A stretch of DNA of 55,465 bases from an uncultured Muribaculaceae bacterium (GTDB taxonomy: Bacteria > Bacteroidota > Bacteroidia > Bacteroidales > Muribaculaceae). How positions within the stretch are numbered: position 1 is the first letter of the stretch; each line of letters opens with the position of its first letter. Location: assembly GCA_947175145.1 (NCBI GenBank), contig CAMWLY010000005.1:1-55465 (forward strand). Reading direction: 5' to 3'. The translations under genes were made by a program, and so were the position numbers. Positions 34,029 through 55,465 of the stretch are shown here, piece by piece. The notes below the pieces were generated by a model. It saw only the letters and a program-made list of their open reading frames with translations, made no database searches and was not told where the DNA came from.

Positions 34029-35654
<1,626 letters not shown>

Positions 35655-37858: not shown

Positions 37859-38677
37859 ATGAGGCTGCGGGCTATACGGATAATGCTTGCCTCGCTCTTT
37901 TTCGTAGCGTCGGTAATATGCATTTTGCTCGGACCGCAGGTGCACCCTCTGGCTAAGGTAAGCCAAAAAGTGCAGATTACACTCTCGATTGCCTCAGTTA
38001 CTCTGGGAGCCACACTCGTGTGGCTCCTGCTTACATTTCTGCTGGGACGTGTGTACTGCGCTACCGTATGCCCGGTGGGAACATTTTCCGACATATTTCT
38101 GCGGATTCGCCGCCGGATTCCGAAGCTTAACAAACCTTTCGCCTACCGCCCGGCTTCCCGACTCTCACCCTATCTGCTATGGGTTTATCTGCTTTGCATA
38201 ATCCTCGGCATATCTTTTATGGTCTGGATTTTGGAACCCTGGCAGATTATGCGCGATATGCTGGCTGCTACCAAACCTTCGATTCTCGATTCAACCTGGG
38301 GTCTGACGGGAGTCGGCGTAACAGCCGGGATAATTGTCGGCATTCTTACAGCCTTGCTGATAGCGATCAGCTCGATACTGTGGGGCAGAGCTTTCTGCAC
38401 AAGATGGTGCCCGGTCGGCACTCTGCTCGGACTGGTGCAGGAGTATTCGCTGATGCATATCGAATTTAACCCTGACAAATGCACCTCATGCGGACTGTGC
38501 GAGGAGCGCTGCCGCGCGCAAGCTATCAAGATCACCGGGCGATACATTGACTCCCGACGATGTGTGCGATGCTTCGATTGTGTGGCCGAATGTCCGGAAG
38601 ATGCCCTGCACTACCAACTAAACAGAAATACACCGCTCACTCCGCTGATGCGTAAAACCAAACGAACTCCATCATGA
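37859..38677 (+). CDS. NapH-like 4Fe-4S polyferredoxin membrane protein
   Basis: 272 residues, inner membrane. About four helices carry two CX3CP motifs on the cytosolic side (YCATVCPVG near residue 63; FCTRWCPVG near 182). They are followed by a C-terminal soluble domain with two 4Fe-4S clusters ([12 protein letters not shown] and [16 protein letters not shown]). This matches the NapH/CcoG/RdxA-like electron-transfer group; the redox partner is unknown and no reductase gene is nearby. The last codons overlap thyA by four bases (ATGA), an odd pairing that may only reflect compact packing. Confidence 0.87.
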
Positions 38678-39468
38678 AACAATATACCGACCTGCTTCGC
38701 CGCATCTTAGCCGAAGGTGTGAAAAAACATGACCGCACCGGCACCGGCACAATCTCCATATTCGGAGCCCAGATGAGATTCGATTTATCCAAGGGCTTCC
38801 CTCTGGTCACTACCAAAAAGGTGCACCTGAAGAGCATAATTCATGAACTGCTCTGGTTTCTGGCCGGCGATACCAATGTGAAATACCTGCAGGAGCATGG
38901 TGTGAGAATCTGGAACGAATGGGCTGACCCCGATGGAAATCTCGGCCATATCTATGGTTATCAGTGGCGCTCATGGCCCGATTATAAAGGAGGTTCCATA
39001 GACCAGATAACCCGCGCGGTGAAGGATATCAAACACAATCCCGATTCCCGCAGAATAATTGTCAGCGCCTGGAATGTGGCCGACCTCGACAATATGAACC
39101 TACCGCCTTGCCACACCTTCTTCCAGTTCTATGTGGCCAACGGCAAATTATCTTGCCAGCTATATCAGCGCAGCGCCGACTGCTTTCTCGGGGTGCCCTT
39201 CAATATAGCGAGTTATGCTCTGCTGACCATGATGATGGCGCAGGTCACAGGCTTGGAACCGGGTGAGTTTATTCACACACTCGGCGATACACACATTTAC
39301 CTGAACCATCTCGACCAGGTTCATGAACAGTTATCGCGCGAGGAGAGAGCTCTCCCGGTCATGAAAATCAATCCGAATGTGAAGTCCATCTTCGATTTCA
39401 AGTATGATGATTTCACGCTTGAGGGTTATGATCCCCACCCTGCCATCAAAGGGGTAGTATCTGTGTAA
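38674..39468 (+). CDS. thyA: Thymidylate synthase
   Basis: 264 residues, cytosolic. It converts dUMP to dTMP using methylene-tetrahydrofolate. [10 protein letters not shown] places the catalytic Cys at residue 146, as in the E. coli enzyme of the same length, followed by [23 protein letters not shown] and the [10 protein letters not shown] substrate loop. Dihydrofolate reductase, a frequent neighbour, is absent. A strong terminator follows 50 bases after the stop. Confidence 0.97.
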
Positions 39469-45541: not shown

Positions 45542-45573
45542 TTTCGTAAAGCTCAATTTTTTCATTAAATTTG
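45542..45573 (+). promoter_or_regulatory. Promoter of the deoC-led operon
   Basis: TTTC (45542-45545), 20 bases, then TAAATTTG (45566-45573). Transcription should begin near 45580, giving a leader of about 60 bases before deoC. No clear operator palindrome is seen. Confidence 0.65.
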
Positions 45574-45641: not shown

Positions 45642-46520
45642 ATGGACAGATATCAGGAAGTAATCGCAAAAAGCAAAGTCACTGTAGATGAGGCCGAAAT
45701 CAAGAAGGCTCTCGATAAGATTTTCGAAAATATTTCCGAACTTGAAACCCCGGAAGTTTATGCCGCCCTACTCGGCAGCATAGACCTGACTACCCTGTCG
45801 ACCGAGGACTCGGATCGTAGCGTAGCGAAATTCACCACACGTGTCAATGATTTCGATGAGGCATATCCGCAGTACCCCCACGTAGCGGCCATCTGCGTAT
45901 ACAGCAATTTTGCCGAAGTAGTGAAGAGTCATCTCGATGTGGAGGGTGTCGATGTGTGTGTGGTTGCCGCCGGCTTCCCCTCAAGTCAGACCTTTCAGGC
46001 GGTCAAGGTAGCCGATGTGGCTCTGGCTCGCGAGGCCGGTGCCGATGAAGTCGATATTGTGCTCAATATCGGAATGTTTCTCGACGGCAACTATGAAGAC
46101 CTCTGCGACGAGATTATCGAACTCAAGCACACAAGCAAGGGGGCGAAACTTAAGGTAATACTTGAGACAGGCGCGCTCAAGACTCCCGAACTTATCAAAG
46201 CGGCAAGCCTGCTCTCAATCTACAGCGGCGCTGATTTCATCAAGACCTCTACCGGCAAGGTTTATCCCGGTGCATCTCTTGAAGCGGCTTATGTGATGTG
46301 TCAGTGCATCCGCGAATATTATGAGCAGACCGGCAACCGCGTCGGCTTCAAAGCGGCCGGTGGCATACGCACTGCCGAAGATGCTGTGAAATATTACGCA
46401 GTGGTCAAGAATGTGCTCGGCGACGAATGGCTGACCCCTGAATATTTCCGTATTGGCGCAAGCTCGCTGGCCAACGCCATGCTTTCAAAACTTGAAAATA
46501 AGGAAGTTAAATTCTTCTGA
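45642..46520 (+). CDS. deoC: Deoxyribose-phosphate aldolase
   Basis: A 292-residue cytosolic class I aldolase splitting 2-deoxyribose-5-phosphate into glyceraldehyde-3-phosphate and acetaldehyde, the end step of DNA-sugar breakdown. The (beta/alpha)8 barrel shows GADEVDIVLNIGMFLDG, KVILETGALK, the Schiff-base lysine in ADFIKTSTGK and the second active-site lysine in GFKAAGGIR. An N-terminal extension of about 40 residues is normal for the longer DeoC form. It is the first gene of a row continuing into a secreted nuclease-like enzyme 30 bases downstream with no terminator between them. That placement suggests it serves deoxynucleosides released by the following genes. Confidence 0.95.
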   Translation: MDRYQEVIAKSKVTVDEAEIKKALDKIFENISELETPEVYAALLGSIDLTTLSTEDSDRSVAKFTTRVNDFDEAYPQYPHVAAICVYSNFAEVVKSHLDVEGVDVCVVAAGFPSSQTFQAVKVADVALAREAGADEVDIVLNIGMFLDGNYEDLCDEIIELKHTSKGAKLKVILETGALKTPELIKAASLLSIYSGADFIKTSTGKVYPGASLEAAYVMCQCIREYYEQTGNRVGFKAAGGIRTAEDAVKYYAVVKNVLGDEWLTPEYFRIGASSLANAMLSKLENKEVKFF

Positions 46521-46549
46521 TACCGAACACCAAGAGAAAACCGACAGAT

Positions 46550-47614
46550 ATGAAACGAGTCAGCACCTTTCTGCTCAGCGCGTTGCTTCTGCTCACAGCC
46601 GCTGCAGGTTTTGCGCAAGATCGCAAGATGGCCACTTTCGGTGTGGCTTTCTATAACCTCGAGAACTTATTTGACACCATCAACAACAATGGCAAATATG
46701 ATTTTGAGTTCTCGCCCAAAGGGGATCACAAGTGGGATTCCCATAAGTATAAATCAAAGATTAACCGCATGGCCTACGCCATCTCCCAGATGCCGACCAA
46801 GACCACACCTCTGGGTCCGGCGGTAATCGGAGTGAGCGAGATTGAAAATATCACCGTGCTTGAGGATTTGGTGAATGCGGAGCCTATCCGCGATCTGGGG
46901 CTCAAGATTGTGCACCATGATTCTCCCGACCGTCGCGGTGTCGATGTGGGCCTGCTCTATAACCCTCAGCTTTTCAGAGTGCTCAAGGTTGAGAACCGCC
47001 CGCTGGTTATCCCGGAATATCCCGAATTCAAGACCCGCGACCAGATGGTGGTTATCGGTCTGATGGGGAATAAGGTTACCGGCTATTCGCGTGTGGCGGT
47101 GATTGTAAACCACTGGCCGTCGCGCCGCGGAGGTGAGGCTCAGTCAAGCTGGCTGCGCGAAGCTGCCGCCGCTCTCAATAAGCAGATTGCCGATGAACTC
47201 ACAGCTCAATATCCCGATATGGGTATCATAACCCTCGGTGACTTCAACGATGACCCCTTCAATAAATCGACTTCTGAAATCCTCGGCGCCGTGCGCGACA
47301 TCAACAAGGTAAAACCCGGCGGTTTCTACAACCCCTTCTGGGAAAAACTCGACAAGGGTATCGGCTCTTACATATACCGCGGCGGCTGGAATCTCTTCGA
47401 CCAGATTATCATCAATGAGAACCTGGTCAACGGCAAGGGCGGTCTTAAATTTCACGCTGCCGAAGTCCTCAACAAACCGTTTCTGCTCCAGCAAGACGGC
47501 CAGTACAAAGGATACCCGCTGCGCACATTCTCAGGTGGTGCCTGGACCGACGGATACTCAGACCATCTCCCCACAGAGATATTCCTGGTTAAAGAGGTGC
47601 AGACTCAACAGTAA
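46550..47614 (+). CDS. Secreted endonuclease/exonuclease/phosphatase family enzyme
   Basis: 354 residues with a signal peptide (about 1-21, ending GFA). The metal-dependent EEP fold has all the landmark motifs: FYNLENLFDT (about 30-39), GVSEIEN with the metal-binding Glu, SPDRRGVDVGLLYN, VNHWPSRRGG, GDFNDDP and a terminal YSDHLP with the catalytic Asp-His. Family members are DNases, RNases or phosphodiesterases; the secreted EEP nucleases ExeM and Xds degrade extracellular DNA. Nuclease activity here is inferred mainly from its neighbours (deoC, receptor, endonuclease I). It could alternatively act as a phosphodiesterase or phosphatase on released nucleotides. Confidence 0.9.
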   Translation: MKRVSTFLLSALLLLTAAAGFAQDRKMATFGVAFYNLENLFDTINNNGKYDFEFSPKGDHKWDSHKYKSKINRMAYAISQMPTKTTPLGPAVIGVSEIENITVLEDLVNAEPIRDLGLKIVHHDSPDRRGVDVGLLYNPQLFRVLKVENRPLVIPEYPEFKTRDQMVVIGLMGNKVTGYSRVAVIVNHWPSRRGGEAQSSWLREAAAALNKQIADELTAQYPDMGIITLGDFNDDPFNKSTSEILGAVRDINKVKPGGFYNPFWEKLDKGIGSYIYRGGWNLFDQIIINENLVNGKGGLKFHAAEVLNKPFLLQQDGQYKGYPLRTFSGGAWTDGYSDHLPTEIFLVKEVQTQQ

Positions 47615-47672
47615 CTCAACCGGGGAATATTAATCACAATACCATCATAAAACAACAAAACAACCATACAAC

Positions 47673-50522
47673 ATGAGAATCAGATTGACACTGCTCGTTT
47701 TGCTGTGTGCCCTGCTTCCCTCGCTGGCATTAGCCCAGACAGGAATCAAGGGAACAGTAGTCGACGCACAAACTGGCCGGCCGGTTGCTGACGCGAACCT
47801 ATTGCTCGCCGACCAGGCTATCTTTGTGGTGAGCGGACCTGATGGATCTTTCACCATAAGCAATGCCGCTCCCGGCTCTGATGTGCTCGAAATTATAGCA
47901 TCAGGTTTCGAAGATGCTTTCGTAGACATCAAACTCACCGATGGACTGATGAACAACCTCGGTGAAATCAAGCTCAATCCTTCGGGTTTTGAAGCCGGTG
48001 CCCTGAATTCAGACAATTTCCTTTTCAACGAGGAGGAAATTCTCGAAGATGAGGGTATCGGGCAGTCTATCGGCACTATCCAGGGTGCTACCGACGATGT
48101 GTATTATTCGACCGCGAACTATAACTTCTCGATAGTGAGATTCCGCAACCGCGGTTACAATCAGACATGGCAGACAGGTTATGTCAACGGCTTCAACCTC
48201 AACGATGCGATGCGCGGTCAGTTTAACTTCTCAATGTTCGGCGGCATGACATCGTCGGCATTCCGCAACCGCTCTACAGAAATCGGACAGGCGCCCGCCG
48301 CCTTCGGTTATGGCTCCATCGGAGGTTCCACAAGCGTGACTACCTATGCTTCGGAGTATGCTCCCGGCTGGAAAGGCTCCCTGGCATATACTAACTCAAA
48401 CTATATGCTGCGCGCGATGCTGCAGTATGCCACCGGCCTTAACAAGCATGGCTGGGCGTTCACAGCCTCAATTATCGGCCGCTACGCTCCCGAGGGTGTG
48501 ATCGAAGGCACTTTCTACAACTCATTCGGCTATTTCCTGGGTCTGCAGAAGGTATTCAACGACAAACACTCTCTCAACCTGTCGACCTGGGGCGCTCCCA
48601 CTCAGCGCGCCACTAATTCGGCCGCCACTCAGGAGGCTTACGACCTGGCAGGCTCTAACCTCTACAACCCATCTTGGGGTTATCTCGATGGCAAAAAGAA
48701 ATCATCGAAAATTGTGGAGAGTTTCGACCCATCGGTTATGCTTAACTGGATTTGGAAACCGAAGTTCGGCACCCGACTGAACACCGGTCTCGCTTTCCGC
48801 TCCAACAATTATTCTTCATCGGCTCTCAACTGGTATCAGTCTGCAGACCCGCGCCCCGACTACTACCGCAATCTCCCTTCATACTTCCGCCCCACTGCCG
48901 ACCCGGAGCTCGATCCCGAACTCTATGCAGCGCAGCTTGCTCAGCAGGAGTATGTGGCTGATTACTGGGGTGGCGCCAAATCTCACCGCCAGATTGACTG
49001 GAACTCACTCTATCAGGCCAACAGACTCAACTGCCTGCAATATGACCGCGACCCCGACCTCAAGGGACAATCTTCTTATATCCTCGAAAACAGGCATTCA
49101 AATTTCAATGCATATATGCTCCAGTCCACACTGGATCATCGCTTCTCGGATATCCTGACCCTTCAGGGAGGTGTAAACGCTACATTTACCGATGCACGCT
49201 ATTACAAGACTGTGCGCGACCTGCTCGGCGGCGAGTTCTGGCGCGATGTTGACAATTTCTCCGAACGCGATTTCGCAGGCGATGTAAATATCATGCAGAA
49301 TGACCTCGACAATCCCAACCGCAGAGTCGGCAAGGGGGATAAGTTCGGTTATGATTACTACATTCGCAACTGGAATGCAGGTGTGTGGCTGCAGAATCAA
49401 ATCACCACAACCTACTGGAATGTGAATTACGCAGCTGAATTCTCATGGACTGATTTCTGGCGCCACGGCAATATGCGCAATGGCCGCGCCCCCGGCGATG
49501 AGAATGGTCTTGACCATAACGGCAACCCGGCAGCCGTGCAGTCTTTAGGTAAAGGCAAGGAACACTCTTTCTTCAACTGGGGTGTTAAAGCAGGCGCTAC
49601 TTATAAGATTGATGGCCGCAATTACATAACCGCACATGCCGGCTACGGAACTCGCGCCCCTCTACCCAATGATGCTTACATCTCTCCAAGAACCAAGGAT
49701 ACCGCAGTGCCCGAACTCAAGAGCGAACGATATTTATCAGCCGACCTCTCATACACCTGGAATTATCCCCGCTTCCGCGGTTCAATCACCGGATTCTACA
49801 CCCAGATGTGGGACGGCATGAAACGCTCAGGATTCTATGATTATGAGCTCTCTTCATTTATGAATTATGCCATGTCGGGAGTGGAAACTCTCTATCAGGG
49901 CATAGAACTCGGAATGCAGTATAAGATTCTGAGCAACCTCTCGGCTACATTTGCCGGCACTCTGGCCAAGTACCAGTACAACAATAATCCGCTCGGCACC
50001 CGAAGCTATGAAAATGGTTCGAAAGAAGATGTGACCCGCCGCGTCTATCTGAAGCATTATCATGTGGGTGGCACTCCTGAAACTGCCATGTCGATCGGTC
50101 TGAACTACAATATCAAACAGTGGTTCTTCGAAGTCAACGCACAGTGGTTTGGCGACGCATATTACGACATCTCACCCTCACGCCACGAAGAGATGCCGGG
50201 ACTCTGGAAACTCTGTGTGCCCACAGCCGACAAAACCGCTGAAGAAATCTACAGAGAGAAACGCGATGAAATCGCTTATCAGGATCATCTCAACTCAGAG
50301 TGGGTGATGAACCTTTCTATAGGTAAGATTATCTACACCAAATTCGGTTCTGTAAATATCAACCTCTCTGTAAACAACCTGCTCAATAACCGCAATATAC
50401 AGACCAACGGTTATCAGGAGGGTAAGTTCGATTATACCAACTACGATGTCAACAAGTTCCCAAACAAGGTCTGGTACGCACAGGGAACTCGTGTATTCCT
50501 GAACTTAGGCATCAAATTCTGA
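47673..50522 (+). CDS. TonB-dependent receptor with carboxypeptidase-like N-terminus
   Basis: 949 residues, outer membrane. A signal peptide (about 1-22) precedes a CarboxypepD_reg-like domain (about 23-105: GIKGTVVDAQTGRPVADANLLLAD), a plug-like region (about 120-215: FRNRGYNQTWQTGYVNGFNLNDAMRG, FGYGSIGGSTSV) and a large beta barrel ending in FLNLGIKF with a terminal aromatic residue. It lacks a SusD partner gene; instead two other lipoproteins follow at once (5-base gap). Together with the flanking nucleases, uptake of DNA fragments, oligonucleotides or a breakdown product is the inferred role. A receptor for another ligand cannot be excluded. Confidence 0.92.
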   Translation: MRIRLTLLVLLCALLPSLALAQTGIKGTVVDAQTGRPVADANLLLADQAIFVVSGPDGSFTISNAAPGSDVLEIIASGFEDAFVDIKLTDGLMNNLGEIKLNPSGFEAGALNSDNFLFNEEEILEDEGIGQSIGTIQGATDDVYYSTANYNFSIVRFRNRGYNQTWQTGYVNGFNLNDAMRGQFNFSMFGGMTSSAFRNRSTEIGQAPAAFGYGSIGGSTSVTTYASEYAPGWKGSLAYTNSNYMLRAMLQYATGLNKHGWAFTASIIGRYAPEGVIEGTFYNSFGYFLGLQKVFNDKHSLNLSTWGAPTQRATNSAATQEAYDLAGSNLYNPSWGYLDGKKKSSKIVESFDPSVMLNWIWKPKFGTRLNTGLAFRSNNYSSSALNWYQSADPRPDYYRNLPSYFRPTADPELDPELYAAQLAQQEYVADYWGGAKSHRQIDWNSLYQANRLNCLQYDRDPDLKGQSSYILENRHSNFNAYMLQSTLDHRFSDILTLQGGVNATFTDARYYKTVRDLLGGEFWRDVDNFSERDFAGDVNIMQNDLDNPNRRVGKGDKFGYDYYIRNWNAGVWLQNQITTTYWNVNYAAEFSWTDFWRHGNMRNGRAPGDENGLDHNGNPAAVQSLGKGKEHSFFNWGVKAGATYKIDGRNYITAHAGYGTRAPLPNDAYISPRTKDTAVPELKSERYLSADLSYTWNYPRFRGSITGFYTQMWDGMKRSGFYDYELSSFMNYAMSGVETLYQGIELGMQYKILSNLSATFAGTLAKYQYNNNPLGTRSYENGSKEDVTRRVYLKHYHVGGTPETAMSIGLNYNIKQWFFEVNAQWFGDAYYDISPSRHEEMPGLWKLCVPTADKTAEEIYREKRDEIAYQDHLNSEWVMNLSIGKIIYTKFGSVNINLSVNNLLNNRNIQTNGYQEGKFDYTNYDVNKFPNKVWYAQGTRVFLNLGIKF

Positions 50523-50527
50523 TCATT

Positions 50528-51658
50528 ATGAAATTCACAGCAATAATACGCAATATCTCGCTTGCGGCCATCATGGCTACAGCGCTCACCGCATGCGATG
50601 ACTTCAAGGCTGAACCTCCGATTATACTACCGGAGGGTGGTGCCGTGGGCTCCGGACTCTGGAATGACCCCCTGACTGCATATCAGGTGCAGATCGGCTC
50701 TGTCAATGAGGAGATGGAAGAGATCTGGGCCACAGGATATATCGTGGGTGTGGTCAACACCGAAATCGGCAATACCCTCAATCAGCGCTGCGCGCAGTTT
50801 GAACCTGCTTTCAACGAGGATAAGAATATGCTTATCTCCATCTATACACCTACAGAGCTTAAGGAGAAATTCATGGTTACTGAAATCGATGAAGAATCCG
50901 GCGAAGAGGTGGTAGTATCAGATACCCGCTGGGAACATGTAGCGACAGTGCAGCTCCCCTCAGGCAACTGCCGCAACGACCTGAATCTCGCCTCTAATCC
51001 GGGCAACCTGGGACGTCAGGTCACAATTCACGGCACCGTTGGTGTGAAATACTGCGGCTGCTATGGTGTGAAGGGTGTAAATGATTATGAGTGGGGCGCA
51101 GTCGGCAAGGAGCCGGTGGTGCTCCCGGCTATCACAGGACCATTCTTTGTGGACTGGGATCAGGCCGCAACTATCGAACCCTGGCTGAATCAGGGCTGGA
51201 AGAAAGTCGCTGTCAAAGGTGGTCTCTCCGGCTGGTATATCAAGACTTTCAGCGGAAATAACTATGTGACCACAAGCGCATATCTCGGCTCGGCTACCGG
51301 TGGCCCGTATGAAAACTGGCTCATCACTCCGGCTATCGACCTCGATGCCCTGACCGACAAGACGCTGAGCTTTATAACTCAGGCTGCTTATTCATGCCCC
51401 GACCCGAGTTATCTCGAGGTCTATGTGATGTCTACTGACAATCCGACCAAGGCGGAACTCAACAAGCTTGAAGCAACTATCGCCACACCGCCGGAAGGCT
51501 CGGCTTACAGCCAGTGGATTAATTCCGGCACTCTCGACCTCTCGGGATTCAGCGGAACCATATATATCGGTTGGAAATATTATTCGGCTCATGGCGGTTC
51601 GGGATTTTCTACAACCTTCTGCATCGATGACATCAATGTAGGCAACGCACAACCCTGA
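50528..51658 (+). CDS. DUF6359/choice-of-anchor-J lipoprotein
   Basis: 376 residues with a lipobox LTAC (Cys23). The first domain (about 35-180) has the DUF6359 pattern: an alternating strand with IWATGYIVGVVN, ATVQLPSG, LNLASNPGNLGRQVTIHGTVG, then CGCYGVKGVNDYEW, consistent with an OB-like barrel. The second domain (about 195-370) is a choice-of-anchor-J-type jelly roll (WLNQGWKKVAVKGG, YENWLITPAIDLDAL, GWKYYSAHGGSGFSTTFCIDDINV), usually ligand-binding. Lying five bases after the receptor gene, it is a candidate surface partner that captures the substrate. Confidence 0.82.
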   Translation: MKFTAIIRNISLAAIMATALTACDDFKAEPPIILPEGGAVGSGLWNDPLTAYQVQIGSVNEEMEEIWATGYIVGVVNTEIGNTLNQRCAQFEPAFNEDKNMLISIYTPTELKEKFMVTEIDEESGEEVVVSDTRWEHVATVQLPSGNCRNDLNLASNPGNLGRQVTIHGTVGVKYCGCYGVKGVNDYEWGAVGKEPVVLPAITGPFFVDWDQAATIEPWLNQGWKKVAVKGGLSGWYIKTFSGNNYVTTSAYLGSATGGPYENWLITPAIDLDALTDKTLSFITQAAYSCPDPSYLEVYVMSTDNPTKAELNKLEATIATPPEGSAYSQWINSGTLDLSGFSGTIYIGWKYYSAHGGSGFSTTFCIDDINVGNAQP

Positions 51659-51693
51659 ATCAGGTGACCATAATTAAAACAAAACACTAAGAA

Positions 51694-53403
51694 ATGAAAC
51701 TCAATATATTTCATGGTGCGCTGGCATCGCTGGCCATGGCAACACTCCTTATCGGCTGTCAGGCCAATATGGATGCTCCGGAACTCAAGGTACCGGTGGC
51801 CGATTTAACTGCCAATACCACTATACTCGAATTGAAGCAGGCCTACGAGGGTAAGACCGGCCTGGTGGTTCGTCCCGGCACTGAATTAACCGACGAGACC
51901 GGAGAGATTATCGGTGGCGAAAGATGCGTGATTCATGGTCGTGTGGTATCTTCAGATGCCACCGGCAATATCTATAAGTCTCTGGTAATACAGGATGAGA
52001 CCGCAGCATTGGCTTTCTCCATCAATCAGGGCAGCCTCTACAATGACTACCGCCTCGGACAGGACGTGGTGGTCGACATGACCGGCCTGACTATCGGATA
52101 TTACCGCGGTCTGCAGCAGATTGGCTCGCTCAATGAATTTTCCGATGGCGAACCTCAGCTCGGCTTCATGGCTTATGACCGCTGGGTAGATGCCGCACAT
52201 CTCAACGGGCTCCCCAATCCTGATTTCTCCGATGTGAAAATCAATTCCGGCTACCCAGATGCAAACGCATATTGCATAGTGATGAATGATTTCGATGAAG
52301 TCAATCAGGCCACTCTCCCCGAGATGCAGAGCCAGCTTGTGGAGTTCCGCAATGTGCATTTCAACATTGTGCCCGGCGAAGAGACTTACGCTCCCTTCCA
52401 GGAGTCGGTGAACCGCACGCTTGTCGATGCCAACGGCAAGACTCTGACAGTCCGCAACTCCGGTTATTCAAATTTCTACACACAGTTACTACCGGAGGGT
52501 ACCGGCGCTGTTCGCGGCATTCTCTCTTACTATGGCAGCGACTGGCAACTTGTGCTCCGCAGCCTGAGCGATGTGATGATTACCACCAAGGGTCAGGAAT
52601 CAGATCCCTTCACCACAGCCGACATCACCGGCAATCAATTTGAAGGCTATCAGGGCTGGTCTGTAGGTTACATAGTCGGTTCTGTGAAAGCCGGTGTGTC
52701 TGCCGTGAACTCAGCAGCCGATGTGGTGTTTGGAGCCGCCGGTGCGGAACTTGACAACAATCTGCTAATCGCAGCATCTGCAGGAGAGACTGACTATACC
52801 CGCTGTGCTATTGTGCAATTGCCGCTCAACAGCGCACTCCGCTACAGTGCCAACCTGCTCGATAACCCCGGTGTCATAGGCAAGGAACTCAAAGTCTATG
52901 GTACTCTCGGATTCGACCTGGGATTGCCGGGTGTGGTTAATCCGAAGAGCGCACGCGGTGAATTCCTGATTGACGGCAAAGTTCCTTCTGATGGCTCGGA
53001 AGCTCCTGCAGCCGCCGGCTCCGGCACAGAAAATGACCCGTATAATGTAACTGCTGTCATGGAATCAACCACCGACATGAGCGATGTCTGGGTGGAAGGC
53101 TATGTGGCCGGTTATGTGATCAGCGGTGACTTCACGCAGGCCACTTGCCAATTCTCGGCCGATGAAGTGGCCGGCTCAAGCAACTGGCTCAACCAGAGCA
53201 ATGTGATTCTCTCCGGTGTAAAGGCCGCGGTGGCCAATGTGGAGAATTCGGTGCCATGCCAGCTCAATGCCAAGTCGCGCCCGATGCTTGGACTCAAGGA
53301 TCACCCGGAAGTGTTCGGCACCCGTGTGAAAGTAAAGTGCAAGGTCGCTTCTTATCTCGGTGTGCGCGGTGTGCGCAATATCTCTGAGGTAGTTATACTC
53401 TGA
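51694..53403 (+). CDS. DUF5689/DUF6359 lipoprotein with OB-like repeats
   Basis: 569 residues with a lipobox LIGC (Cys22). Three units are visible: a DUF5689-like domain (about 40-300: TTILELKQAYEG, CVIHGRVVSSDATGNIYKSLVIQDETAALAF, LGQDVVVDMTGLTIGYYRGLQQIG) and two DUF6359-like units (about 305-430 and 440-569: VGYIVGSV, LLDNPGVIGKELKVYGTLG; VWVEGYVAGYVISG, LKDHPEVFGTRVKVKCKVASYLGVRGVRNISEV). The strand pattern resembles OB folds, common nucleic-acid binders. Placed between the receptor and endonuclease I, a role in holding DNA at the surface is plausible but unproven. Confidence 0.82.
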   Translation: MKLNIFHGALASLAMATLLIGCQANMDAPELKVPVADLTANTTILELKQAYEGKTGLVVRPGTELTDETGEIIGGERCVIHGRVVSSDATGNIYKSLVIQDETAALAFSINQGSLYNDYRLGQDVVVDMTGLTIGYYRGLQQIGSLNEFSDGEPQLGFMAYDRWVDAAHLNGLPNPDFSDVKINSGYPDANAYCIVMNDFDEVNQATLPEMQSQLVEFRNVHFNIVPGEETYAPFQESVNRTLVDANGKTLTVRNSGYSNFYTQLLPEGTGAVRGILSYYGSDWQLVLRSLSDVMITTKGQESDPFTTADITGNQFEGYQGWSVGYIVGSVKAGVSAVNSAADVVFGAAGAELDNNLLIAASAGETDYTRCAIVQLPLNSALRYSANLLDNPGVIGKELKVYGTLGFDLGLPGVVNPKSARGEFLIDGKVPSDGSEAPAAAGSGTENDPYNVTAVMESTTDMSDVWVEGYVAGYVISGDFTQATCQFSADEVAGSSNWLNQSNVILSGVKAAVANVENSVPCQLNAKSRPMLGLKDHPEVFGTRVKVKCKVASYLGVRGVRNISEVVIL

Positions 53404-53408
53404 TTATT

Positions 53409-55121
53409 ATGAAAATTCGCTTTATTGCAATCTTGATGCTGTGCGCTCTTGCGGGCGCACAGCATCCTATATCTGCCGCCTATCCCGACGGTTATTATAC
53501 CCGCATGGACGGCAAACGCGCAGAGGCTCTAAAGGCCGCCGCCAAGGCTTGTGTCTCTACCCATACACGCCTCGAATACTATGATCTCCCAAACTACTGG
53601 CAATATTCAGATGTATATCCCGAGACTGTCAATGGTCTCAAACGCTGGTGGGATATGTATTCCGATGCCGTGTACCTGATACAGGCCGGGCAATCGGGGA
53701 AACAGTCATTCTCGGCCAATAAGATGCAGCGCGAACATGCTGTGCCTAAATCCTGGTGGAAAGTAGGCAGCGATGTGGAGTATACTCCATGCTACTCCGA
53801 TATGTGGAATCTTTATCCCTCTGACCCGTCGGCGAATCAGGCCAAACTGAATTATCCGTTTGGTGAGACACGCACCACTTCTTTCGATAATGGTGTGACC
53901 AAGGTCGGCCCTCCGAAATCAGGCTACGGCGGAGGCTCTCCTGAAGTGTTTGAACCGGCCGACGAGTATAAGGGAGATTTCGCCAGAGCCATATTCTATG
54001 TAGCGACCGTATATGATGACCTGCCCTGGAAATATGATTATATGTTTGTGAAGCAAACATATCCTACGCTGCTCCCCTGGGCTGTGAATATGCTTCTGCA
54101 GTGGAGCCGCAAGGATCCGGTGGACCAGAAGGAGATAGACCGCAATAATGCGGTGCAACAATATCAGGGTAACCGCAATCCGTTTATAGATTTCCCGAAT
54201 CTCGCCGAATACATCTGGGGACAGCGTGTGTCGGAAGATTTTATAATTGCCGACCAACCTAACACCGGTCTGACACCCCCTATCACCGGTGATCCGGAAC
54301 TCACAGCCCCGGTCAATGGTGAGTATCTCGATTTCGGTGAAATTGCGGTCAATGTCACCACTCGCCGCGGTTTGCAGATTTCCGGCAGTAATCTCACACA
54401 ACCCCTCACTCTGAGAGTGGTCGGAGAGCACCGGGATTATTTCATTCCCGAAGTGCAGAGTGTGCCGGCTTCCACTATTAATTCCGGTGGCGGTTATCTT
54501 CTCGACATCAGCTATCGGCCCAAAGAGAAAGGAAGCCACTCAGCCAAGCTTACTCTTTCAGATGGAGGTCTCGAAGGAAGCATTGTGGTCAACCTCAAGG
54601 GGGAGGCTCTGGACCGGCCCGAGCTTTATGCTCTGACAGCTCTTGAGCCGGCCGACCTGACCGAATCTTCTTATACTGCCCGATGGAATGCACCGGCGGG
54701 TATCGCGGATTTCTATGTGCTGACAAGAGTGAGGTATACCGACTCCGGCGAGGAAGCTGAAACCTATGATACCGGCGAAACTGAATATCTGTTGCAACGC
54801 GACCCGAATGTGCCCGAAAGTTATTCGGTGACATATTACCGGCTCGGGCTGGAATCTCCCAGCAGCAATACAATCTATATCGCCGCTGCCGGATTGCATG
54901 ACATCCGCACTCAGGCTCCATGTCATATATATGCCTGCGATGGAGGTATAGTGATAAGATGCGCCGAGGGTGAAGGTGGACTAATCCGAATTTTTAATGT
55001 GAATGGTATCACGGTCGCCAGTGTGGCCGAGTATTACGATGGCATGCAAATCACACTTGCACCGGGTGTGTATATAGCCACAATCGGCGGCTCTGCTCCG
55101 CAAAGGATTATAGTGCTCTAA
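53409..55121 (+). CDS. Secreted endonuclease I with Ig/FN3-like and sorting domains
   Basis: 570 residues with a signal peptide (about 1-23). The endonuclease I (EndA/Dns/NucM) domain spans about 25-285: MQREHAVPKSWW contains the catalytic His, and YSDMWNLYPSDPSANQAKLNYPFGE contains the metal-binding Asn residues. Enzymes of this family cut DNA without sequence preference. Then come an Ig-like HYDIN/DUF1573-type domain (about 300-400: LDFGEIAVNVTTRRGLQISGSNL), an FN3-like domain (about 400-490) and a C-terminal tail (about 500-570: IYACDGGIVIRCAE, IRIFNVNGITVAS, LAPGVYIATIGG), which matches type A sorting tails. Surface display or release by type IX secretion is inferred. Last gene of the deoC-led row. 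Confidence 0.92.
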   Translation: MKIRFIAILMLCALAGAQHPISAAYPDGYYTRMDGKRAEALKAAAKACVSTHTRLEYYDLPNYWQYSDVYPETVNGLKRWWDMYSDAVYLIQAGQSGKQSFSANKMQREHAVPKSWWKVGSDVEYTPCYSDMWNLYPSDPSANQAKLNYPFGETRTTSFDNGVTKVGPPKSGYGGGSPEVFEPADEYKGDFARAIFYVATVYDDLPWKYDYMFVKQTYPTLLPWAVNMLLQWSRKDPVDQKEIDRNNAVQQYQGNRNPFIDFPNLAEYIWGQRVSEDFIIADQPNTGLTPPITGDPELTAPVNGEYLDFGEIAVNVTTRRGLQISGSNLTQPLTLRVVGEHRDYFIPEVQSVPASTINSGGGYLLDISYRPKEKGSHSAKLTLSDGGLEGSIVVNLKGEALDRPELYALTALEPADLTESSYTARWNAPAGIADFYVLTRVRYTDSGEEAETYDTGETEYLLQRDPNVPESYSVTYYRLGLESPSSNTIYIAAAGLHDIRTQAPCHIYACDGGIVIRCAEGEGGLIRIFNVNGITVASVAEYYDGMQITLAPGVYIATIGGSAPQRIIVL

Positions 55122-55146: not shown

Positions 55147-55465
55147 ATGAACGGATGGCTGACGGTGGCACTGCTCGTGGTGTCAAATGTTTTCATGACT
55201 TTTGCCTGGTATGGGCAATTGAAGCTGCAGGATATGAAGGTTATTACTTCCGACACTCCGCTATGGATTATCATACTCGGCAGCTGGGGTGTTGCTCTGC
55301 TTGAGTATTTCTTCATGATTCCCGCCAATAAGTATGGATTCATCGGCAACGGAGGCCAGTTCTCTATCATGCAGCGTAAGGTCATACAGGAAGTTATCTC
55401 TCTGACTGTGTTCTCACTGTTTGAATTTTATTGTTTAAGGGTGAAAGTCTGCACTGGAATCACTT
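55147..55465 (+). CDS. DUF486 (DMT family) membrane protein, partial, apparent frameshift
   Basis: It starts at 55147, 25 bases after the endonuclease gene, and runs off the window. The N-terminal part (MNGWLTVALLVVSNVFMTFAWYGQLKL, NKYGFIGNGGQFSIMQRKVIQEVISLTVFSLF) is a clear DUF486 small multidrug-transporter-like protein with several helices. After SLF the frame reads EFYCLRVKVCTGIT, which does not fit. The -1 frame from about 55433 reads FKGESLHWNH, which matches the family's conserved end (F-K-x-E-x-x-x-W-N-H). One base seems to be missing near 55421-55430 in an A/T run. Function is unknown. Confidence 0.75.
   Translation, partial: MNGWLTVALLVVSNVFMTFAWYGQLKLQDMKVITSDTPLWIIILGSWGVALLEYFFMIPANKYGFIGNGGQFSIMQRKVIQEVISLTVFSLFEFYCLRVKVCTGIT

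Follow-up and report, generated by a model that had tools for sequence, protein, structure and literature searches.

A six-gene cluster in an uncultured Muribaculaceae bacterium as a candidate DNA capture and breakdown system, built on a module recurrent in Bacteroidia

We analyzed an entire contig of 55,465 nucleotides (CAMWLY010000005.1, hereafter the window) from the genome of an uncultured Muribaculaceae bacterium (GCA_947175145.1, designated G000; 2.07 Mb, 93.76% complete), and focused on six genes at positions 45642-55121 of the + strand that encode a deoxyribose-phosphate aldolase (deoC), two putative nucleases, a TonB-dependent-receptor-like transporter and two lipoproteins. A sequence-only reading had proposed that this cluster is a locus for the utilization of extracellular DNA. 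It described the six genes as lying on one strand with 5-58 bases between neighbors, and our recount of the coordinates agreed (intergenic gaps of 29, 58, 5, 35 and 5 bases).

The first gene, deoC (45642-46520), matched PF01791 and exceeded the cut-off of TIGR00126 (158.8 bits versus 117.3). It is followed by the gene for an EEP-superfamily enzyme (46550-47614), a putative secreted nuclease with an Exo_endo_phos_3 domain (E = 6.5e-106) and a signal peptide recognized by eye; 10 of its 11 motif columns were invariant across 75/75 relatives, and it matched no NCBIfam model, including the ExeM/NucH model (NF033681) that served as the test for an Xds-type enzyme. The third gene (47673-50522) encodes a receptor of 949 amino acids with CarboxypepD_reg at its N-terminus. 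This protein matched no Plug or barrel family of Pfam, and a barrel was visible in the predicted structure alone, which is that of a plugged outer-membrane barrel like a TonB-dependent transporter. In fold comparisons, the model resembled small-ligand receptors, for example those of siderophores and cobalamin; SusC and SusD were missing from the lists of fold matches, which do not exclude such folds. Lipoprotein 1 (50528-51658; lipobox recognized by eye) carries DUF6359 and choice-of-anchor J, and lipoprotein 2 (51694-53403) carries DUF5689 and two DUF6359 stretches. The model of the latter can be read as four OB-type barrels, and the OB-like fold proposed earlier for the lipoproteins is borne out, as a prediction, for lipoprotein 2. 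The last gene (53409-55121) encodes a member of the endonuclease I family (PF04231, E = 3.2e-44; 151.9 bits versus a cut-off of 25) with choice-of-anchor-D-like and C-terminal tail regions; its nuclease activity is predicted, and its motif columns were conserved in 15/15 close relatives except for one G-to-A change.

A receptor match at E < 1e-100 was present in 24/37 genomes of the same genus, and gene order was compared in the loci of 23 relatives (L031-L053, one per genome), with cases at contig edges left out as untestable. The EEP gene lay 5' of the receptor gene in all testable loci (22/22), deoC lay 5' of and next to the EEP gene in 20/22, and endonuclease I followed lipoprotein 2 in 16/19, with one open reading frame (ORF) between them in L040. 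Both deoC and endonuclease I were lacking from L051 and L052, and endonuclease I from L045. The sequence-only reading had made its proposal depend on a gene order conserved beyond this strain; the order is kept in same-genus loci, which argues that the cluster is more than a chance arrangement. In the window, ruvC ends 111 bases 5' of deoC, and it adjoins deoC on the same strand in 10 of the 20 loci with neighboring deoC and EEP genes (the contig of L045 begins at deoC, where ruvC is untestable). The explanation that deoC was retained merely through its ruvC neighbor was rejected, because adjacency of deoC and EEP outnumbers that of ruvC and deoC (20 versus 10 loci). Tandem endonuclease I genes, two or three in number, were also observed (L031:14444-19700, L035:121-3653, L043:10938-13645, L047:65-3584, L048:1-4680 and L050:13068-17842); the extra copies retain the H of the motif and differ in other motif columns.

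Outside the genus, the receptor was matched at E < 1e-100 in 8/24 genomes of other Bacteroidales, and at 540 bits or more in at least 74 of 296 genomes sampled from the class Bacteroidia, including the window's own; scoring was limited to three candidates per genome, which makes the class count a lower bound. We examined the neighborhoods of 40 of the 74 loci, drawn from 15 families, and compared them with those of 20 control receptors, which were second-tier matches of the class scan. The EEP gene adjoined the receptor gene in 34/40 class loci (divergently in 33) and a DUF5689 gene came next in 39/40, compared with 0/20 and 0/20 for the controls. The same arrangement was found in a Weeksellaceae-type family (EEP adjacent in 12 and DUF5689 next in 12 of 12 loci) and in 64 named loci, mostly of Chryseobacterium (EEP adjacent in 60, DUF5689 at most three genes away in 64). 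Endonuclease I was less specific, with profile matches at most five genes from control receptors in 5/20 cases, three of them confirmed by Pfam. deoC was found near 1/20 control receptors, within five genes in 0/40 class loci, and in 0/8 loci of other Bacteroidales. On sequence grounds, EEP, receptor and DUF5689 lipoprotein form a core module that recurs across the class, and deoC and endonuclease I are additions to it in the window's genus. The earlier definition of the locus held in its link to DNA, and its six-gene unit is recast as a class-wide core plus two additions. ComEC was considered as a further part and rejected, being near in the Riemerella locus described below (L162), farther away in L163 and, by a profile built from one sequence, missing from the seven-gene neighborhood of the receptor in all 40 class loci. 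A viral origin was likewise rejected, as the receptor alignment, run against viral contigs, gave no relative; a plasmid collection yielded six records (21 kb to 1.77 Mb) with distant relatives at 21-37.5% identity.

The core has homologs in Riemerella anatipestifer, a duck bacterium, where published genetics bears on its function. In a transposon screen, natural-transformation genes including RA0C_RS04915 and RA0C_RS04920 were identified, and markerless deletion of either gene brought transformation below detection (PMC8459023). RS04915 is described there as an outer-membrane protein with CarboxypepD_reg and RS04920 as a protein with DUF5689, DUF5017 and choice-of-anchor J, and the authors proposed RS04920 as the DNA binder and RS04915 as the carrier across the outer membrane. 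In our search of the accessible literature, DUF5689 was met only in this screen, and the RS04910, RS04915 and RS04920 tags were likewise met in one paper. Riemerella tonBA and tonBB mutants showed lower transformation, the tonBB effect being put down to iron by the authors, and a tbfA mutant showed none (PMC8383284).

We located the corresponding locus (L162) through the genome family with the strongest lipoprotein-family scores, in a one-contig genome of 2,164,087 bases. Counted in steps of five per gene from recA as RS04870, ComEC becomes RS04895, the EEP gene RS04910, the receptor gene RS04915 and the DUF5689 lipoprotein gene RS04920, an order that agrees with the tags given in PMC8459023. 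From this gene order and the 93% identity of its receptor to a named R. anatipestifer record, we infer that L162 belongs to this species and take its receptor as RA0C_RS04915. The L162 lipoprotein scored 599.3 bits against the M949_1556 family (NF052645; cut-off 475 bits), a cut-off passed in 2/296 class genomes and not reached by lipoprotein 2 (113.8 bits) or lipoprotein 1 (58 bits). Between the window and L162, the receptors share 27% identity over 985 columns (E = 4.9e-103) and the EEP enzymes 35% (E = 3.6e-65); lipoprotein 2 aligned with the L162 lipoprotein at 32% over the DUF5689 half (E = 1.8e-23) and lipoprotein 1 at 29% over the choice-of-anchor J half (E = 1.4e-6). The receptors are reciprocal best hits: the window receptor matched the Riemerella genome at E = 6.9e-90 (runner-up, 1.1e-14), and the Riemerella receptor matched G000 at E = 9.4e-90 with no second match. 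By these alignments, the locus contains the Riemerella-type module, namely a receptor ortholog, DUF5689 and choice-of-anchor J distributed over two proteins, and an EEP gene adjoining the receptor gene, and the DNA reading of the cluster has moved from analogy to homology. In PMC8459023, homologs of RS04915 were found only in Flavobacteriaceae; receptors of this type here extend to Bacteroidales and Cytophagales.

The published Riemerella model assigns single-strand conversion to a protein not yet identified (PMC8459023). The Riemerella EEP gene (L162:11436-12626, - strand; RS04910 by count) lies divergently beside the transformation pair; in the same paper, its transcription alone was measured, as that of a neighbor of the pair, and its product scored 22.2 bits against NF033681 (cut-off 300) in our scan. 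We consider it a candidate for the missing DNA-degrading protein of that model.

Independent clusters also join these domains to nucleases. Flammeovirga kamogawensis has two EEP genes, a receptor and a DUF5689/DUF6359/LTD protein, followed by DUF5689 and Endonuclease_1 in a single chain; Aureibacter tunicatorum has a receptor, two DUF5689-annotated proteins, Endonuclease_1 and two EEP genes; and Bacteroides finegoldii has a receptor, DUF5689 and EEP. Among the 113 fusion homologs listed, DUF5689 was joined to Endonuclease_1 in 14 and to the unrelated Endonuclease_NS in one (Flammeovirga pectinis), and a domain re-scan of 6 of these 15 fusions agreed. The fusion of a DUF5689 module to two nuclease families would otherwise be hard to explain, and therefore argues for a nucleic-acid ligand. 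Separately, a second receptor family was observed immediately ahead of an Endonuclease_1 gene with a type IX secretion system (T9SS) tail at L276:6117-12047, L277:3592-9746 and L280:6447-12316. In L276, this receptor has Plug and barrel Pfam matches and a lamin-tail-domain T9SS protein lies 5' of it, and ORFs of similar size lie 5' of the receptor in L277 and L280. Bacteroidia may thus have another receptor system linked to nucleases.

The locus might serve natural transformation in this organism too, with DNA imported for recombination and deoC and endonuclease I as a side business. The orthologous receptor and lipoprotein are essential for transformation in Riemerella (PMC8459023), and G000 encodes both ComEC (508 amino acids) and DprA, but these two are widespread rather than transformation-specific (DprA in 57/61 genomes). 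Transformation in Riemerella also needs the helix-hairpin-helix (HHH) protein RS02645 (PMC8459023), which, judging from domains and place, is probably a protein of 447 amino acids with three HHH_3 stretches. A single-sequence search with this protein matched 226/296 class genomes at E = 1e-5. A 14-sequence profile matched 20/24 genomes of other Bacteroidales at E = 2.8e-31 or better, of which 11 were sources of profile rows and 9 were not, but gave no dedicated match in 37 same-genus genomes (0/37, G000 included; best E = 2.8e-9), where gaps, as in the 93.76% complete G000, or divergence could have let a copy escape. The weak matches, in 19 same-genus genomes, fell in frames of 546-754 amino acids (18 genomes), which we presume to be the Tex protein, or of 101 amino acids (1 genome). 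Over the 296 genomes, the phyletic match between HHH protein and receptor was not clean, and it was not used beyond the genus. Because deoC and endonuclease I were gained and the HHH protein was undetected, feeding is the most likely role of the locus in the window's genus, ahead of gene transfer, and we consider a role in transformation here very unlikely.

Taken together, we propose, with a probability of about 0.55, that the locus captures, imports and breaks down DNA and that its core is an old Bacteroidia DNA-uptake module, here turned to feeding. Homology to DNA-uptake genes, the DUF5689-nuclease fusions and the standing EEP partner argue for DNA as the ligand, and in this respect the earlier proposal of a DNA-utilization locus gained ground; its metabolic end is still a guess. 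In the scheme that we infer for DNA binding, transport, the site of cutting and nutritional use, surface lipoproteins of OB-type barrels would hold extracellular DNA above the TonB-dependent transporter, cutting outside the cell, in the periplasm or both would fall to endonuclease I and the EEP enzyme, and DNA or its fragments would cross the outer membrane via the transporter. Dephosphorylation and phosphorolysis by enzymes other than those of the cluster would precede the DeoC step, in which deoxyribose-5-phosphate would be converted to glyceraldehyde-3-phosphate and acetaldehyde. The core (EEP, transporter and DUF5689 lipoprotein) would serve natural transformation in Riemerella, with deoC and endonuclease I gained in the window's genus.

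Several observations weigh against this proposal. The locus is missing from some same-genus genomes, Flavobacterium johnsoniae was not competent despite having homologs (PMC8459023), and at least 10 receptor-bearing genomes outside the genus also had no HHH match in the single-sequence search. Riemerella M949_1556 has also been tied to antigenicity and pathogenicity (PMC12566107, citing 2015 work), and the lipoprotein may therefore have roles beyond DNA binding. The receptor, both lipoproteins and endonuclease I of the window are acidic. Matches to a T9SS tail, all below cut-off, occurred in 6/8 endonuclease I proteins scanned and not in that of the window. Finally, under phosphate depletion, the F. 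johnsoniae endonuclease I genes Fjoh_4721 and Fjoh_4723 were raised, and an EEP gene slightly (PMC8115612).

This last response favors phosphate scavenging, already the main alternative of the sequence-only reading, in which the same genes would degrade extracellular DNA for its phosphate and deoC would merely dispose of the sugar. For such use deoC would be superfluous, yet it stands in the cluster in 20/22 testable same-genus loci, and a domain scan found no phosphatase among the six genes; we regard this explanation as unlikely, though worth serious consideration. Carbon and phosphate use are not mutually exclusive and are not told apart here. In the same study of F. johnsoniae, Fjoh_3841, a receptor with PF13620 alone, was strongly raised (7.69) under phosphate depletion (PMC8115612).

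We also considered that the cluster clears extracellular DNA (biofilm matrix or host DNA traps), or that its imported ligand is an oligonucleotide, a nucleoside or something else, with polymeric DNA staying outside. The presence of two putative secreted nucleases in the cluster, the acidity of the lipoproteins and the likeness of the receptor model to small-ligand receptors are consistent with this, but loss of the orthologous receptor halts transformation in Riemerella (PMC8459023), and the presence of deoC in the cluster implies that a product is used. We judge this explanation improbable.

The six genes are probably co-transcribed. In the window scan, the four terminator-like sites on the + strand were all intragenic and none lay between the six genes, as the sequence-only reading had claimed; on both strands, 11 such sites were observed versus 9.4 expected. 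Its claim of one promoter before deoC fared less well: a weak pattern match to a possible Bacteroidetes-type -7 element, TAAATTTG (45566-45573, + strand), lies upstream of deoC, but the pattern TAnnTTTG, which we take to be the Bacteroidetes-type promoter consensus, has 23 matches on the window's + strand, and a sigma-70 scan found no + strand site upstream of deoC. A seventh same-strand ORF (DMT_6) begins at 55147, 25 bases past endonuclease I, and runs off the window; it was the best match of no ORF in the loci of 31 relatives. Genes for CTP synthase (34041-35654) and thymidylate synthase (38674-39468) lie on the same strand 6-12 kb 5' of deoC and are probably unrelated.

Among known systems, the Riemerella pair resembles the window in its receptor ortholog, its DUF5689 and choice-of-anchor J domains and the EEP gene next door. 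It differs in that the window adds deoC and endonuclease I in a genus without a dedicated HHH match, distributes the lipoprotein domains over two genes instead of one, and has EEP on the same strand, as in its genus, whereas the Riemerella EEP gene is divergent, as in most of the class. The Flammeovirga kamogawensis and Aureibacter tunicatorum clusters likewise combine receptor, DUF5689 proteins, Endonuclease_1 and EEP on one strand, but have two EEP genes and no deoC in the listed features, and in Flammeovirga DUF5689 and Endonuclease_1 form one protein. In Vibrio cholerae, Dns (endonuclease I) and Xds (an EEP-family nuclease) allow the use of extracellular DNA. The window shares this combination of one endonuclease I and one EEP-superfamily enzyme, but its EEP enzyme is of the Exo_endo_phos_3 type without an ExeM/NucH match and is tied to a receptor and lipoproteins. 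SusCD and PusCD systems (PMC8115612) also combine a surface lipoprotein, an outer-membrane receptor and degrading enzymes; unlike them, the window has nucleases rather than glycosidases or phosphatases, a receptor without Plug or barrel Pfam matches, and lipoproteins that matched no SusD family of Pfam. The earlier analogy to a polysaccharide utilization locus thus survives as a plan of working and not in its SusD-like part.

Our literature search, which covered few subscription papers and preprints, found no report of a TonB-linked DNA-feeding locus. The class-wide extent of the module, its standing nuclease partner and the variant with deoC and endonuclease I are new here. How DNA passes the outer membrane in Bacteroidia has been open so far, one screen in one species having named two genes, and nucleic acid is the ligand suggested for the class-wide pair by its fusions to two nuclease families. 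The results offer a candidate for the DNA-degrading step of the Riemerella model and a candidate DNA-feeding locus in gut bacteria, in which competence and nutrition may have parted ways. We tentatively suggest, at somewhat less than even odds, that Bacteroidia share a TonB-powered DNA importer, with a DUF5689 OB-barrel lipoprotein as binder at the surface, a receptor pore and EEP as the nuclease missing from the Riemerella model, and that some gut Muribaculaceae may have uncoupled it from transformation and rebuilt it with deoC and endonuclease I for feeding on DNA.

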